Shown here piece after piece: positions 53,987-61,156 of a DNA stretch of 64,000 bases (position 1 is its first letter; every line of letters starts with the position of its first letter). The DNA is from Colletotrichum lupini (lineage: Eukaryota > Ascomycota > Sordariomycetes > Glomerellales > Glomerellaceae). The notes under the pieces were generated by a model. The model searched no databases. It saw only the letters and a list, made by a program, of their open reading frames with translations, and was not told the DNA's origin. A program made the translations under genes and the position numbers. The stretch spans positions 1,054,001 to 1,118,000 of the forward strand of contig NC_064678.1 in assembly GCF_023278565.1 (NCBI RefSeq). Direction: 5' to 3'.

Positions 53987-54118
53987 GTTGTATGTGTGTC
54001 CGCGGCCCGCGGGATGTTACCAACAGACGCGTGTGTGTGCGTTTAGTTATGGGCCCTATCTCCTGTTTTGGGACGACTTTTGTTTTGAGTATCGAAAACT
54101 GTTTTGGTAGAGAACTGG

Positions 54119-54179
54119 TGTTACGAGATATGGATGTGGTTAATGCTGCCTACATTGAGTGGGCCCGCTTTTTGTGACA
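54119..54179 (+). repeat. Left 61-bp LTR
   Basis: Matches 61091-61151 at 60 of 61 positions. The single difference is T54122 against C61094 in a TGTYACG context, a CpA to TpA change of the RIP type. Confidence 0.85.
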
Positions 54180-54189
54180 GTTATGAGCC
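54180..54189 (+). promoter_or_regulatory. Primer-binding site complementary to tRNA-Met anticodon loop
   Basis: GTTATGAGCC begins at the base after the left LTR. Its complement GGCTCATAAC includes the CAT anticodon, so priming by a cleaved half-tRNA is implied, as known for Drosophila copia. Confidence 0.65.
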
Positions 54190-57100
54190 TAGCTCTTAGT
54201 TAAAACCCCATACCACGATAACGTACTTATTAACACGATTCCTACGATCTCTTTAAAATAACCGACTTATTCGTACCTACTTTAGCCTAAGCTAAACTAA
54301 CTAACTATAATAATTAAATTAAATAGTTTAACGTACTTTGCGCTATAAGTAAGGGTATCGGGGTTTAAAAGTACGTCGACCTAAATACTCTAAATTCTAA
54401 TATATTCCTCGACCCCTCTATAGTGCTTACTTCGCCCTTAGAATTTAAATAATTAATTATAACCCGTAATAAAAAAGAACTACGAGCCTACTAAGCCCGT
54501 TATAAAGTATTTAAAAACGACTAAAGAAACTAAGAAATCCTCTATTAATAGCTTCTAAATATAACTCTTAATACGAACCTTTTAACTTTTTTAAATATAA
54601 GTAACCTATAGAACTAAGCCGGGTTTCTTTTTATAAAGCTAGCTATACTACTTACTTTACGTAAATAAATCTATCCTTATACCATACTTATAAAAAGGAT
54701 CTATATACTTAAGAATATTTAAAAATAATAAGAGCTCGATACTAAATATAAGTAACTTATAGCTTACGAACGTAATATTATTAATACGTATATTAAAGTC
54801 CTCGCTTAGTAATTAGTAAAATTAATTAACGCTATACTATATAAATACGTATTTTAAAAAGTTATTAAGAACGGCGCTAAGTTTAATATATAGCGAATTA
54901 TTAAGTATTTAAAATAGGAATTTATGCCCCCCGAACTAGTAGTAAGGAATGCGGTTCGAGAGGAATATTAATAAGCTCTTAATAAAGCGAGGACTAGAAT
55001 TAACCCCTAATATTAGTATAAAGAGTAATAGTTTACTTACCTCCGAACTAAAACGTATAATATTTTAAAAATTAATAAAGAGATCGCCGTACTTAACTTC
55101 TTAATTATAATTAAGTCTAAACTTAACCCTATATAGGGCTAACGTATATATAAAACCTTTAGCAAATTAATAGCCTTCGGAACGCACATAAGGACCCTCG
55201 AGGAGATTACGTATATATTTAGCTTAGTAACCTAGGACGTATATACTAAACGACCTTTAGGTTAAAAAAGGGCTTACTCTACTTTTACTAAACGCTCTAA
55301 CTTAGTTAACGATATAAATAATAAGGGTAACATTATATACCCTTATAATCGCGCACACCCGTAGCACCCTATAGTATATTAAAAATTAAAATAAGTATTT
55401 ATAAGCCGAAACGTTAGTAAGTTATTAATACGAATACTAAGGAGCTATATAGAAAAAGTCCTCGCCGCTATTAAATTAAGTAAGTAAAAATTACTCTATA
55501 ATAAGCTTAAAAAAGCTAATTAACTAAAGAACGATAGAACCCCTAAAAAACCTAGGTTTCTAAAAAGATCCTCTAACTAACTTATAACGAGCTTATTAAT
55601 AAACTAGGACGAGGGCTACGTAGTCGCTATACTTATAAAGAGTTAGGACTTAAAAATAAACGCAATTTTTAGCACCCCTATAAGTAGCGCTTACCCCCTT
55701 TTTTAGAGCACGGTAATAAATAGCTATAGAGTAATATATTTAATTAATAACAAGAGCCTACTTAAACCCGAGAGTTACGTATTATTAAGTAATAAAGACT
55801 ACGTTAAATTAAGAACTATTATATTACTTATTATTATATGCGGCACTCGTATTATAAAGGGTATTTTAAATAGACCTAAAGGAAAGGGAACCTACGATCT
55901 AAAGCTCTAGAACGTCGCTTATATTAAGGGATTTTATATTAATATAGTCTTAGAAACTTTACTAAATAAAAGCGTACTCTAGTATTACGGTTTAAATTAT
56001 ACTTTATAATAAAAAACGCTTTATAAGAGTATTATTAAAAAGTAGCTTATTTAAAAGAATAATCTAATCTTCTTTAAATATAAGCTTTTCTAATCCTATC
56101 CTTTTTTTATAAACCTTAAGCGTATCCTATAGAGCCTAGCTAGTATTATACTACTAGTTAGCTATAGAAAATTCCGTTACTTATATTAATATACTTATAA
56201 GAGGTTTAATAGCGCGCTCCTCTAGTACCTTAAAATAGGTTATCTTAGACCTAATGCTTTTTATTAATTATTATATAAGACTCGAGGTATACGTATTAAA
56301 CCTCTATTATAAGTTAAGTATAAAGTATATATATTATCTAAAGCTAAGATAGTAGTCTTAAGAGGACTACCCTTAAAAAAAGCCTTATAGCTATAGTACC
56401 GTATATACTAAGATCTCTTCTATTTCGAACTATTTTTTAATCAATAATAATATATATTTATAGCTTCTGATAAATATAGTAAGTAGCTTAGGGGGTTCTT
56501 TTTAAGGATAAAAATAGAGGAGGAAGTGCTTTTTATACTATAGAGCCTCGAGGTAGTAATTTATTATTAAAAAAGGACTCTAATTTACTTCTTTAAAAAT
56601 AATAATAAGACCGCTCTCTTAACTATAAACGTTAAATACGAATATAAAACGTAATATAGCGAGCTAAGAATTAGAATAGAACTTCTATTTTTATATATAA
56701 AAGAACCCGTAAGTAATGTTAAAAAAGTAAGTTAACTTATAATTATTAAAGCTCGTAAGATATACCTTTTTATAAACCTCTTTATAAATCTATAGGACGA
56801 AATAGTACTAATAATAATCTTTATTTATAATATTACCCTACGGGAGGCTAATAAAGGAGATTTACTTATTATAATAAAAATTAATTAGTAAAAATAGTAT
56901 TAACGCTAATAATAAACGGGTTACTAAGTATAAGATTCTAAACTAATTACCCTATATCTTAGTAGCCTCTATATATATAGTTACTAAGTATACCCTTTTT
57001 ATAAGGATCGTAAGAGGGGTATATATTAAAAGGAGTTTAAAGTACTTCCCTACGAGTATATAAAATACTTAGTTAAATATATACTAAAAACGCATAACCT

Positions 57101-60100
57101 ATATAGGGTCTAAGTACCCGCCCTTAAGTAGGTATTTATTATAAAAAATATTAAGTTTAATAAAGAAGTTTTTTATAATCCTATATACGAGGAATAAGCT
57201 ATCGTAAGCGAGTAAGTAAATCTAATAATCTAAGAAATATAAGAACTTTTTAATACTAATAATACGTTAGTTCGAGCACTCGGGGAAGTAGATCTAGACT
57301 TTAAAAATACTAATACTTAAAATAACTCTATAGTTAAGGATAGTATTACTATTAAATTTTTAACTATTTAGGACGCTAAGTAATAAATAGACGTACTTTA
57401 AAGTGCGGTAAATAAGGCTAAAGAGGCTAATATAGTCTTATTATTATTATTAACCCCTAAAATAACCCCCTTGCGCAAGCTCGGGGGTAGGGGTAAGGAA
57501 GGGGATATAATAACTAGGTTATAAACGGCTTTATATAGTCCATAGTCCTCCTTATAAGCGCTTATATATATTATAAAGGTTCTTAAGCCTTTAATTCTTA
57601 ATAGCTCTTAATAAAACGCTAAAGTACGCAGTAAACGAGGTACTAATTATAAAGAAGTAATTCTTAATACTAAAGTTAATATTAGTAAGGAACCCTTATA
57701 ATAAACCTCTATTATTATATAAGAATAGAGCTTATAAAAACTGCCTTATTAAGTACTAAGTAAAGCTCCGTTAGGTCCTAGACGTTTAAACCGGGCCTAT
57801 AGACCTCTATAACGCTTCGATAATAACATTTTCGTAACGCTCTTATATTTAAATATAGGAGATAATAATTACTATAACCGTCTCTAGGACTACTTTTTCT
57901 CTATTTTTATACTTAATTAATAAAAAGCTATAGAGGAAAGTAGTATAGGATATATAATACTTTATTAAGTAATAAAAAGAGTAGTTTATAGGACTTACTT
58001 AGAGCGCTCTAGAGGAGTTTAAAAACCACGACTTATTAAAATTAACTTCTAGAGCTTACTAAAGAAGTTTAGTAATATTAAATATCTCTTATTATAATTA
58101 TAAAAGTTACTTAGGGATACTATAAACGTAAAAATAAAAAAGCTAAGGGATATTAGTATATAAGAAGAGGTCGACTATAATTTTAAATAAGGGATCTTAC
58201 TTTTATTAAAGTAGGTATATATTTATAAATACGACGTTAATAACGAGGTTAGTAAGGTAAAAGTATGTATATATATAAGAGGGGACATATAACTACTTAA
58301 CCCTTTATAAAATACGTACGCTTTAACGCTCGCTACAAAGGCCTTTAGGCTTATAATAATAATAGCTACTTAATTCGACCTTAAAATAGACTAATATAAT
58401 ACTATTAATATATTCCTTAACGCGCTTCTTAAGAGCGAGAAGCTAGTAATTATTAAACTCCTAGAGGGACATAAGGTTATTAATAAAATAAATAAACTCT
58501 AACGCGCTCTATATAGCCTCCGAAACTTATTAATTCTCTAGTTCTAAACTTTTACTTCTATACTTTATAATATAAATATAATATATAATTATAAAGAGAT
58601 CTATATTTACTAAACCGTAAATAAGAAGGTAATACTAGTATTCTACGTTAATAATTTTATTATTCTATATTATTAAGATAATTAAAAGGCGGCTTAGGGG
58701 ATCGTTAACGGTATAAAAAAATATATTAACTTTAAAGAAAATAGACTAATTAATTACTTCTTTAGAGTGCGGATTTTATAAAACCGTACTACTTATAAAG
58801 TTTATTTTATTTACGACGTATATATTAAGCGAGTTACTAAGCGCTTCGACTTTATAGATTTATTATATCTAGCTACTCCTCTTTTTTAAAAAGAGTTTAA
58901 ACTAAACGAGGGGTAGGTAATAAAAAAGGAAATAAAGAGTTATTAAAAAAAGGTTAGGAGTGTGCTTTATATAGCTATTATAATTAGATTAGACGTCGCT
59001 TTTACTTACTCGTAATTATTATAGTTCCTAACTAACCTAAGCATAACCTATATTAAAGTAATTGACTACTATATCCGATATCTTTATATAATAAAATATC
59101 TTATGCTCTATTACGGTAATATACTAAGTACGTAATTATTATTTCTAACTAAAAATACTAGCTTTATAAATAACGAGGTAATACGACAATTATTTTAAGA
59201 ATATATAATATTCCTTTTTAGTAGCCTAATTTAATAAAAATTAGTATACTAAGTAACGGTTACGATATTAATTACTAAAGCTAAGCTTCTTTATTTTAAG
59301 GAAACTATAAAAAAGACTATAGCTCTAAAGCGCCTTTTTAAGGATATTACCCTTAACCTAAGAAAAGTATAGTTAGTTAATTACGATAATTAGTAAATAA
59401 TTCGACTTATCGTAGGGGAAGGAGAAAGAATAGCTATTTAACTTTACTATATTAATATATAAAATATATAGCTAAGATAAGAGCATACTAAAGGTAGCTT
59501 CGAAGTTATTTATATATTAATAAAAAATATATTAATAAATAGACTTACTAAAAACTTTTTACGAGCTAAGTTCGAATATTTCCGTATACTTCTTAACTTT
59601 TATAATACGTAAGAAGCTATTATAAATAGTTAAAATAGTTAAAAATAATTAATTTAGGCTATGCTTAGAAAAACTTAATACCTAAAGGTATACGTTAAAT
59701 AGGCCTAGAATAGTAAAAAGAACTATACTTATTACGGGGGGTACCTTAGCCTCTCGGCGTTTTTTTTTATTTTTTACCACCCTTTTAAAAAGAGCTAGCC
59801 TTGTGTTTTTTAAATTTTAAAATAATATTAAATATAAACTTTTAAAATAATAAGTATATAATATACCCTTTTTAAAGGGCTTATTATCCGAACTAGTCTT
59901 ATCCTTATTTTTAAACTCCGAGGGGGGAATAGGTAAAAGCCCGTTAAAACTCTTATTATTATTATTTACTTTATTATTACCCTTATTACGGTTACTAAGG
60001 AGAGCCTCGAACTTAATAAAGTCCTCGGTATCTTAACTAATAACTTTAATATCCTTTTAACTAAGGAGAGAGAGCTTAGTAGCCGGGCCTTAGTAAGTAA

Positions 60101-60845
60101 ATAGAAGGTCGTAGGGGGGGGTAATAACTTAGAAGGGCTCGTTAGTATTATTACTTATTTAAACTCTTAGTAAATTATTTAATATATATATAAGAGGTAT
60201 TATAAAAATTGTGCGAAATTTATTATTATTTTTAAATATATTAAATATTTATATTTAAAATAAAATTAATAAACGATTTGACGGCGTAGGCGTGCGCGTA
60301 TAATAAACGGGGGTATTTATAATAATTATGAGAAGTTAAAAAGAAAAAGAAAAATAATAGCTAAGTAACGCCGCGAGAATTTAGATATACGTAAGGTAGC
60401 TAAGTAGCCTCGCCCTTAATAATTTATATACTAAAAGTAATAAAATACGCGCTATTCTAAGTTAGGATTCTATTTACTTTAAATAAAAAGATATATTTAT
60501 AATAAACGCGGTTTAAAAAACGCGTATCCCTTATGCTTAATTTTCTTTTATTTATATTTAACTAAATTAGGCCTTTATAAGGGTATTTAAAGATTCTATT
60601 TTAAGTATAATAGCTCCCTAGCGGTAGTAATTAGGGAGTATATTACGTAATAAGGATAGTAATCGTACCTTATAAAGTGCCCGTTACGTACTAAATCACG
60701 TGTCTATCTTAGATATTATATATATAGACCTTTTCTTTTTATTTATTTCCACTTTAATAATTAAGCTACTTTTACTATACTCCGTATGCCCATTACTACG
60801 TACTATAACTCGTAATAGTTATAAGCCCAGCTCCTATCTACTATT

Positions 60846-60927
60846 GCTATAATGGTTAAGTGCCGCATTATCTACAGGTCGTGTACCCCAAAAGCGAGAG
60901 GCAACCGTTCGAGTCTCCGTATAGGCA
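60846..60927 (+). other. tRNA-like segment in copia 3' region
   Basis: TGGTTAAGTG (A-box-like) and GTTCGAGTC (B-box-like) lie about 55 bases apart, bounded by GCTATA and TATAGGC which could pair. It does not fold as a standard tRNA. It may be a captured tRNA or SINE fragment. Confidence 0.35.
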
Positions 60928-60935
60928 TAGTTTTT

Positions 60936-61060
60936 CTAGCTAGTCTACTACCTGCAGGGCTAAGGCGTAGTATAAATACCAGGTTTTCTAACTAGTCTGC
61001 TACCTATGGGGCTGAGGCTGCCATCTACAGGGCTAAGGCGTAGTACAGACGTCCATTACA
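60936..61060 (+). repeat. Tandem-like repeat units near the copia 3' end
   Basis: CTAGTCTACTACCTGCAGGG and GGGCTAAGGCGTAGTA units recur in diverged form between 60936 and 61060, just upstream of the polypurine tract. Function unknown. Confidence 0.5.
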
Positions 61061-61090
61061 CGGATGACGGCTCTAGGCGTCTAGGGGGTA

Positions 61091-61151
61091 TGTCACGAGA
61101 TATGGATGTGGTTAATGCTGCCTACATTGAGTGGGCCCGCTTTTTGTGACA
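61091..61151 (+). repeat. Right 61-bp LTR
   Basis: Preceded by the purine tract at 61084-61088 and followed by the ACTGG target duplication. It ends GTGACA, the inverted complement of its TGTCAC start. Confidence 0.85.
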
Positions 61152-61156
61152 ACTGG

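Follow-up and report, generated by a model that had tools for sequence, protein, structure and literature searches.

Miniature LTR elements and composite insertions described previously

Weak similarity is usually the only basis for guessing on which helper a miniature LTR element depends, and how such elements keep that dependence is stated to be not known in the sections of Kojima (2024, PMC10886601) used here. Gao (2012, PMC3281118) described, in the parts compared, the TRIM element FRetro129 together with a putative copia partner, FRetro64, which carries LTRs of 76 and 90 bp and is a precedent for copia LTRs below 100 bp. The insertion analysed here lies in a 64,000-nt stretch of Colletotrichum lupini DNA, termed the window (C5:1054001-1118000; assembly of 63.4 Mb in 12 contigs), and contains parts of two elements: a miniature element, S, with a 61-bp LTR (LTR-S), and a copia, P, with a 177-bp LTR (LTR-P). 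A transporter gene nearby shows 99% identity to Colletotrichum simmondsii. As far as the compared parts of PMC3281118 go, S resembles FRetro129 in its size (∼0.3 kb), short LTRs, primer-binding site (PBS), polypurine tract (PPT) and solo LTRs, and both pairs include a copia partner whose PBS and PPT are similar and whose LTR differs. The interior of FRetro129 is, however, 96% identical to that of its partner, while the longest stretch shared by the compared pieces of S and P beyond the primer site is 13 bases. The LTR of S is 61 bp long, and composites with the partner were found for S and P; those parts of PMC3281118 make no mention of composites for FRetro129.

The template-switch complexes of Triticeae and other grasses (Sabot and Schulman 2007, PMC1950507) have, as here, three LTRs, two interiors, a single outer target-site duplication (TSD) and matching outer LTRs, and were explained by template switching. 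In those four cases the elements are closely related and the R regions are the proposed place of the switch, whereas S and P have unrelated interiors and LTRs, the exchange is mostly at the primer site, reciprocal two-LTR hybrids occur, and 20 cases were examined in one genome. The tandemly arrayed TRIMs described in the compared part of Gao (2016, PMC4717578) range from three LTRs with two interiors to five LTRs with four interiors, include inverted pairs and have one TSD, all of which finds parallels here. That part describes no partner element inside the arrays; here the S tetramer described below is a mixture of length classes, and other products contain P.

Helenus and TRIMp3, in the sections of PMC10886601 compared, are like S in being fungal TRIMs with a copia partner and a 5-bp TSD. 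For most of these fungal elements the primer reported there is a tRNA fragment from the anticodon arm, most commonly that of iMet, and the 14-nt PBS of S likewise corresponds to a tRNA anticodon arm. The Helenus LTR carries tRNA-like sequence, whereas LTR-S carries none and weak A/B-box-like motifs lie in the S interior instead; the fungal Helenus hosts in Table 1 of that paper are Basidiomycota. Drosophila Copia and Ty5, as cited in the same sections, share with S and P a primer site directed at the tRNA anticodon arm. Template-switch complexes, tandem TRIMs and copia LTRs below 100 bp are already known. Among the open-licence papers listed by full-text searches, judged by title and start of abstract, none describes composites of a TRIM and its helper joined at the primer site. 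We know of no description of Drosophila Copia or Ty5 that includes a miniature partner or a composite.

Structure of the window element and its two sources

The window element is bounded by 61-bp TG..CA direct repeats that match at 60 of 61 positions (a single C/T difference), with ACTGG on both sides. From 5′ to 3′ it consists of LTR-S, PBS, P interior, LTR-P, a second PBS, S interior and LTR-S (Table 1). The original prediction, a Ty1/copia element with 61-bp LTRs, was right about the repeats and about their being true termini: the 61-bp boundary is genuine, and no homology past the 61 bases, into the flank, was seen in other copies of LTR-S. A search for further copies gave 83 matches to a 32-base piece of LTR-S at up to three mismatches in the 63.4-Mb assembly, and none to the reversed control pattern. 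Solo LTR-S copies showed a perfect 5-bp TSD in 15 cases out of 16, the remaining one agreeing in 4/5 bases. The primer site and purine tract noted originally are present as a half-tRNA PBS and a PPT. These ends would indeed be overlooked by LTR finders that demand at least 100 bp. What had to be revised is the ownership of the repeats: the insertion is of copia type, with TSD, PBS and PPT, but the copia's own LTR is the 177-bp one. The concern over how 61 bp can hold every signal pertains to the miniature element S.

Table 1. Features of the window element (positions in the window) and the composite or hybrid insertions with both ends examined; a slash marks a junction
Feature	Position or locus	Strand	TSD	Remark
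5′ target-site duplication	54114..54118	.	ACTGG	
5′ LTR-S	54119..54179	+		LTR of miniature element S, 61 bp
Primer-binding site 1	54180..54193	+		complement of tRNA-Met nt 26-39, 13/14, one RIP-type T
P interior	54194..60640	+		copia, RIP-mutated, stops in every frame
Degenerate reverse transcriptase/RNase H region of P	58314..59369	+		tblastn; resembles intact copia of the same genome
Internal LTR-P	60641..60817	+		copia's own, 177 bp; matches both LTRs of free P
Primer-binding site 2	60818..60831	+		start of S interior, 13/14, one RIP-type A
S interior	60832..61090	+		length class 274
3′ LTR-S	61091..61151	+		61 bp
3′ target-site duplication	61152..61156	.	ACTGG	
LTR-S/P...S/LTR-S	C5, window		ACTGG	
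LTR-S/P...S/LTR-S	C1:6973257		GAAGG	
LTR-S/P...S/LTR-S	C3:5274238		TAAGA	
LTR-S/P...S/LTR-S	C3:3103057		CAATG	
LTR-S/P...S/LTR-S	C7:3646287		GAAGA	
LTR-S/P...S/LTR-S	C7:4757851		GTAGT	
LTR-S/P...S/LTR-S	C3:6191325		AATAG	internally deleted
LTR-S/P...S/LTR-S	C5:5201262		TATTT	
LTR-S/P...S/LTR-S	C1:5573107		GAATC	
Reciprocal hybrid LTR-P/S/LTR-S	L019		AAGCA	
Reciprocal hybrid LTR-P/S/LTR-S	L020		ATATA	
Reciprocal hybrid LTR-P/S/LTR-S	L031		4/5 bases	
Reciprocal hybrid LTR-S/P/LTR-P	C5:5227612		GAACC	
Reciprocal hybrid LTR-S/P/LTR-P	C2:5891584		TATTA	short repeated segment near 3′ end
LTR-P/S/LTR-S/P/LTR-P/S/LTR-S	C2		GAGTT	larger array
S tetramer			GATTT	
S/S pair			TAAAA	end to end
S/P pair	L037		CTTTG	end to end
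S, primer-site copy, inverted LTR-S			TGTTG	primer-site copy of 14 or 15 nt
P joined to inverted S	C3		AATAC	

The 14 bases of the PBS are complementary to nt 26-39 of tRNA-Met (L071), the T-loop of which resembles that of initiator tRNA. In free S copies (e.g. L038) the match to the tRNA is complete, at 14/14 positions. The matching tRNA arm was found at eight loci, every one of them tRNA-Met by ARAGORN. The stretch common to P and S at the primer site is 16 bases long; in the window the two are alike through position 54195, and the sequence downstream is P-specific. In addition to this half-tRNA primer site and the purine tract, the two elements have similar LTR ends, the first seven bases (TGTCACG) being alike, as are the last (GTGACA) where RIP has not changed them.

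The P interior of the window ends in the purine tract AGGGAGTA (60633-60640) and lacks a 781-bp 3′ segment found in other P copies (e.g. L070), while the S interior (60818-61090 including the PBS) ends in the purine tract CTAGGGGGTA (61081-61090). The interior of the window element is dead: its forward frames contain 173, 231 and 298 stops. The P part is strongly RIP-like, with a TpA/ApT ratio of 1.7 against ∼0.6 in the flanks and a GC content of 0.27.

Among 40 scored genomic copies of the first 482 bases of the element, the match began at query positions 1-10 in 16, at 56-63 in 23 and at 40 in one; most scored copies of the 5′ interior thus lack LTR-S. The one free P copy with both ends read, at C8:3466000, has a 177-bp TG..CA LTR at each end; its TSD reads GAAGA and its purine tract is similar. 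A tblastn comparison with the pol piece of an intact copia gave E-values of 2e-12 for the window, resting on one protein piece against its interior, and 2e-21 for a less mutated copy, in both cases with very small databases. The same region of the less mutated copy matched Pfam RVT_2 below the cut-off (E 0.0028), and Pfam gave no relevant match for the window pieces. By its reverse-transcriptase similarity P is classed as a copia, with weak Pfam support. The RIP-mutated P pieces yielded no integrase match with Pfam or tblastn. A genome-wide RVT_2 search found chiefly another, intact copia family plus other RIP-damaged copias, with no match inside the P of the window. The 781-bp segment may be present or absent in P: 4/40 scored matches continue uninterrupted over the join, and two of these are composites (the window and C3:5274238). 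Pairs of P interiors differ by 0-3 transversions (19 copies), and with almost no transversions a P tree cannot separate independent events.

A second copia family (G000 C1:3594023 and others) was also noted; in the one copy read in part (L105-L107), the LTRs are ∼500 bp long and the half-tRNA primer site is similar. This family is probably the source of the 29 stop-free RVT_2 matches of at least 164 bits, while P is RIP-dead. It seems to have been active recently and could be serving S at present.

Many copies of LTR-S are paired ∼260-335 bp apart, in the order LTR, primer site, short interior, purine tract, LTR. Free S is 322-396 bp long and non-coding, its longest ATG frame reaching 26-108 aa (13 copies, both strands). 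With a size below 1000 bp, two LTRs, a PBS and a PPT, S is a TRIM/SMART-type miniature element. Among 16 free copies with both ends examined, the 5-bp TSD is perfect in 15, of which three are split by later insertions, and agrees in 4/5 bases in the other one; 5 bp is also the TSD length of free P, as read at the single copy with both ends. S most likely depended on P for its mobility: their joint products and common termini, PPT and PBS point to P as the putative partner of S. Free S copies are RIP-marked to a varying degree (TpA/ApT 0.75-1.71, 16 copies).

Exact A box, B box, TATAWA and AATAAA motifs are absent from LTR-S, and so are the tRNA-derived A and B boxes that characterize the Helenus LTR. 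A tRNA gene or a SINE inside the S interior was ruled out: ARAGORN found no tRNA in six S loci or the window, and Rfam had no match in four S loci. Free S interiors contain weak Pol III A/B-box-like motifs, with an exact B box kept in 14/16, and a one-mismatch A box plus an exact B box at the usual spacing arose in 43 of 5000 first-order Markov sequences derived from one S interior. A Pol III signal in the S interior is possible but weak, and boxes downstream of the primer site should not drive full-length S RNA.

Several further observations concern S copies. One copy, L084, is shortened. An insertion of ∼1.9 kb with ∼28-bp inverted ends (C10:1965353-1967224; L041, L079) lies within an S copy, at a TA between the purine tract and the LTR, with a GC content of 0.28 over 1247 bases. 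Another element, starting TGTCACGGCAGTGGGC, breaks an S-P hybrid (L029, near 1856) and an S copy (L040, near 1622); its first seven bases are common to LTR-S and LTR-P.

Composites, hybrids and their joints across the genome

Both ends were examined in 20 composites or hybrids, and 19 of them have a perfect outer 5-bp TSD (Table 1), indicating that each integrated as a single unit. Since 40 candidates were scored in each genome DNA search, the copy numbers drawn from these searches are lower bounds. Seven further products with only one end seen or a broken 3′ side were kept apart (L013, L021, L022, L027, L029, L094 and L102). The features that define a template-switch complex, i.e. an internal LTR, two interiors, matching outer LTRs and a TSD, are all found in the window. 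Of the nine copies in its class, LTR-S/P...S/LTR-S, all have a perfect TSD and seven contain LTR-P, full in five and partial in two; the other two (C1:6973257 and C1:5573107) have LTR-S sequence in its place. Four of the nine pairs of ends, matched by position, orientation and TSD, span 15-37 kb owing to later insertions.

The composites and hybrids carry four S length classes (222, 250, 253 and 274). At least five P-S pairings were distinguished: P without the 781-bp segment with classes 274 and 253, and P with the segment with classes 222, 250 (L013, with only its 3′ end examined) and 274 (the larger C2 product). Composites were thus formed repeatedly. The S interiors of the tetramer belong to classes 253, 222, 253 and ∼200, which indicates that it was built from different templates rather than by duplication of one element. 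Four products of class 274 share a variant absent from the three free S copies of that class examined.

Of 27 junction rows, one (the P row of L022, cut two bases early) was excluded and 26 were in register: nine LTR-S to P at 5′ ends, two internal LTR-S to P, 11 LTR-P to S, one normal P and three normal S. Each of the 26 keeps its LTR type up to the primer site, and whether the interior is of P or of S is decided only past the 16 shared bases; the crossover of the 22 P-S exchanges at the primer site is not placeable within those bases. In the insertion of S with an inverted LTR-S, one base of the primer-site copy is ambiguous, and 14 nt match the tRNA.

Another six P-S joints have a different position. 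In C1:6973257 and the inverted C3 form, a 3′ stretch of P is joined to LTR-S at a microhomology; the joint of C1:5573107 lies ∼15 nt upstream of the LTR, near the purine tract; in L022 and L037, LTR end abuts LTR end; and in L021 a partial LTR-S is joined to the pol region of P. These joints suggest that end-joining, microhomology switching or later deletion made some products, the LTR/LTR joints pointing to some end-joining. A stretch from the 3′ part of P, similar to GAGTGGGCCCG of LTR-S, served as a joint twice, once direct and once inverted (L036 1471-1500 and L086 430-480). The L036 joint, at LTR-S position 39, falls in a microhomology and does not settle where the R region starts in LTR-S.

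Origin of the composites

We consider it quite likely that the window element is a composite of S and P that arose in shared particles by template switching, mostly at the primer site, and was later killed by RIP. This reading builds on the observed order of the parts, the single integration marked by the TSD, the existence of free S and P families, the reciprocal hybrids and the exchange mostly at the primer site. S and P RNAs would have been packaged together in one particle. A growing strand ending in primer-site sequence could then pair with the other element's primer site rather than with its own. Movement of plus-strand strong-stop DNA (LTR plus primer copy) to the wrong minus strand would yield two-LTR hybrids, and serial linking via the primer site of a second template would yield composites and tandem arrays. 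The integrase is proposed to have accepted such products because the termini of S and P are alike, and RIP-type mutation would have inactivated them afterwards. The window copy itself could descend from an earlier composite, the private variant of class 274 being a hint.

It is a serious though tentative possibility, and one compatible with template switching, that composites arose on a few occasions and then replicated as units, each copied whole from its 61-bp LTR. The existence of at least nine such copies and the variant shared by the 274-class products speak for it, but the P-S pairings indicate repeated formation.

An origin at the DNA level would involve recombination, at the primer site, between an integrated S and either a one-LTR P circle or a P nearby; reasoning from the map, it would give the same order of parts. 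We regard it as unlikely: homology at the joint is only ∼16 bp, two-LTR hybrids have a TSD, and the tetramer mixes classes. The matching outer TSDs (19/20) argue against post-integration recombination in particular, as recombination between neighbours should lose them (PMC1950507). Nested insertion of P into S at the border of LTR-S and PBS, followed by loss of the 5′ LTR of P, has abutting S/P forms in its favour but is highly improbable: the exact LTR loss would be required every time, no P TSD is left, and the outer TSD of L037 encloses both partners, which were therefore joined before integration. A single copia family with 61-bp LTRs of its own and the 3′ interior as its untranslated region, although consistent with the TSD, PBS, PPT and matching ends and with TSDs in 9/9 similar copies, was dropped once free P and free S came to light and is equally improbable given the internal LTR-P with a second PBS, the free P with its own LTRs and TSD, and the 23/40 scored copies of the 5′ interior that begin without LTR-S.

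In 14 copies with a 5′ LTR-S beside P (window 54119-54600 plus 13 others), RIP-type transitions reached 0.20 in the first 40 columns and 0.38-0.64 in the bins beyond; RIP appears to fade toward the repeat edge. It is a rather speculative idea that LTRs act as interchangeable heads, S regularly lending its 61-bp LTR to the helper and taking the helper's LTR via the half-tRNA primer site. The swap may give a silenced copia a cleaner promoter, as the 61-bp LTR lies at the edge and is less RIP-mutated. The varying RIP marks on free S speak against full escape from RIP. If the idea is true, S and its helper together make up a single modular system whose parts recombine.

For annotation, the locus is a warning that one insertion can carry two LTR families and that LTR length alone would misfile it. 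With most joints lying on the primer site, the template-switch model is directly testable. In this genome the parasite is physically joined to its putative helper in both directions; such joints indicate which element the helper is and hint that particles were shared.
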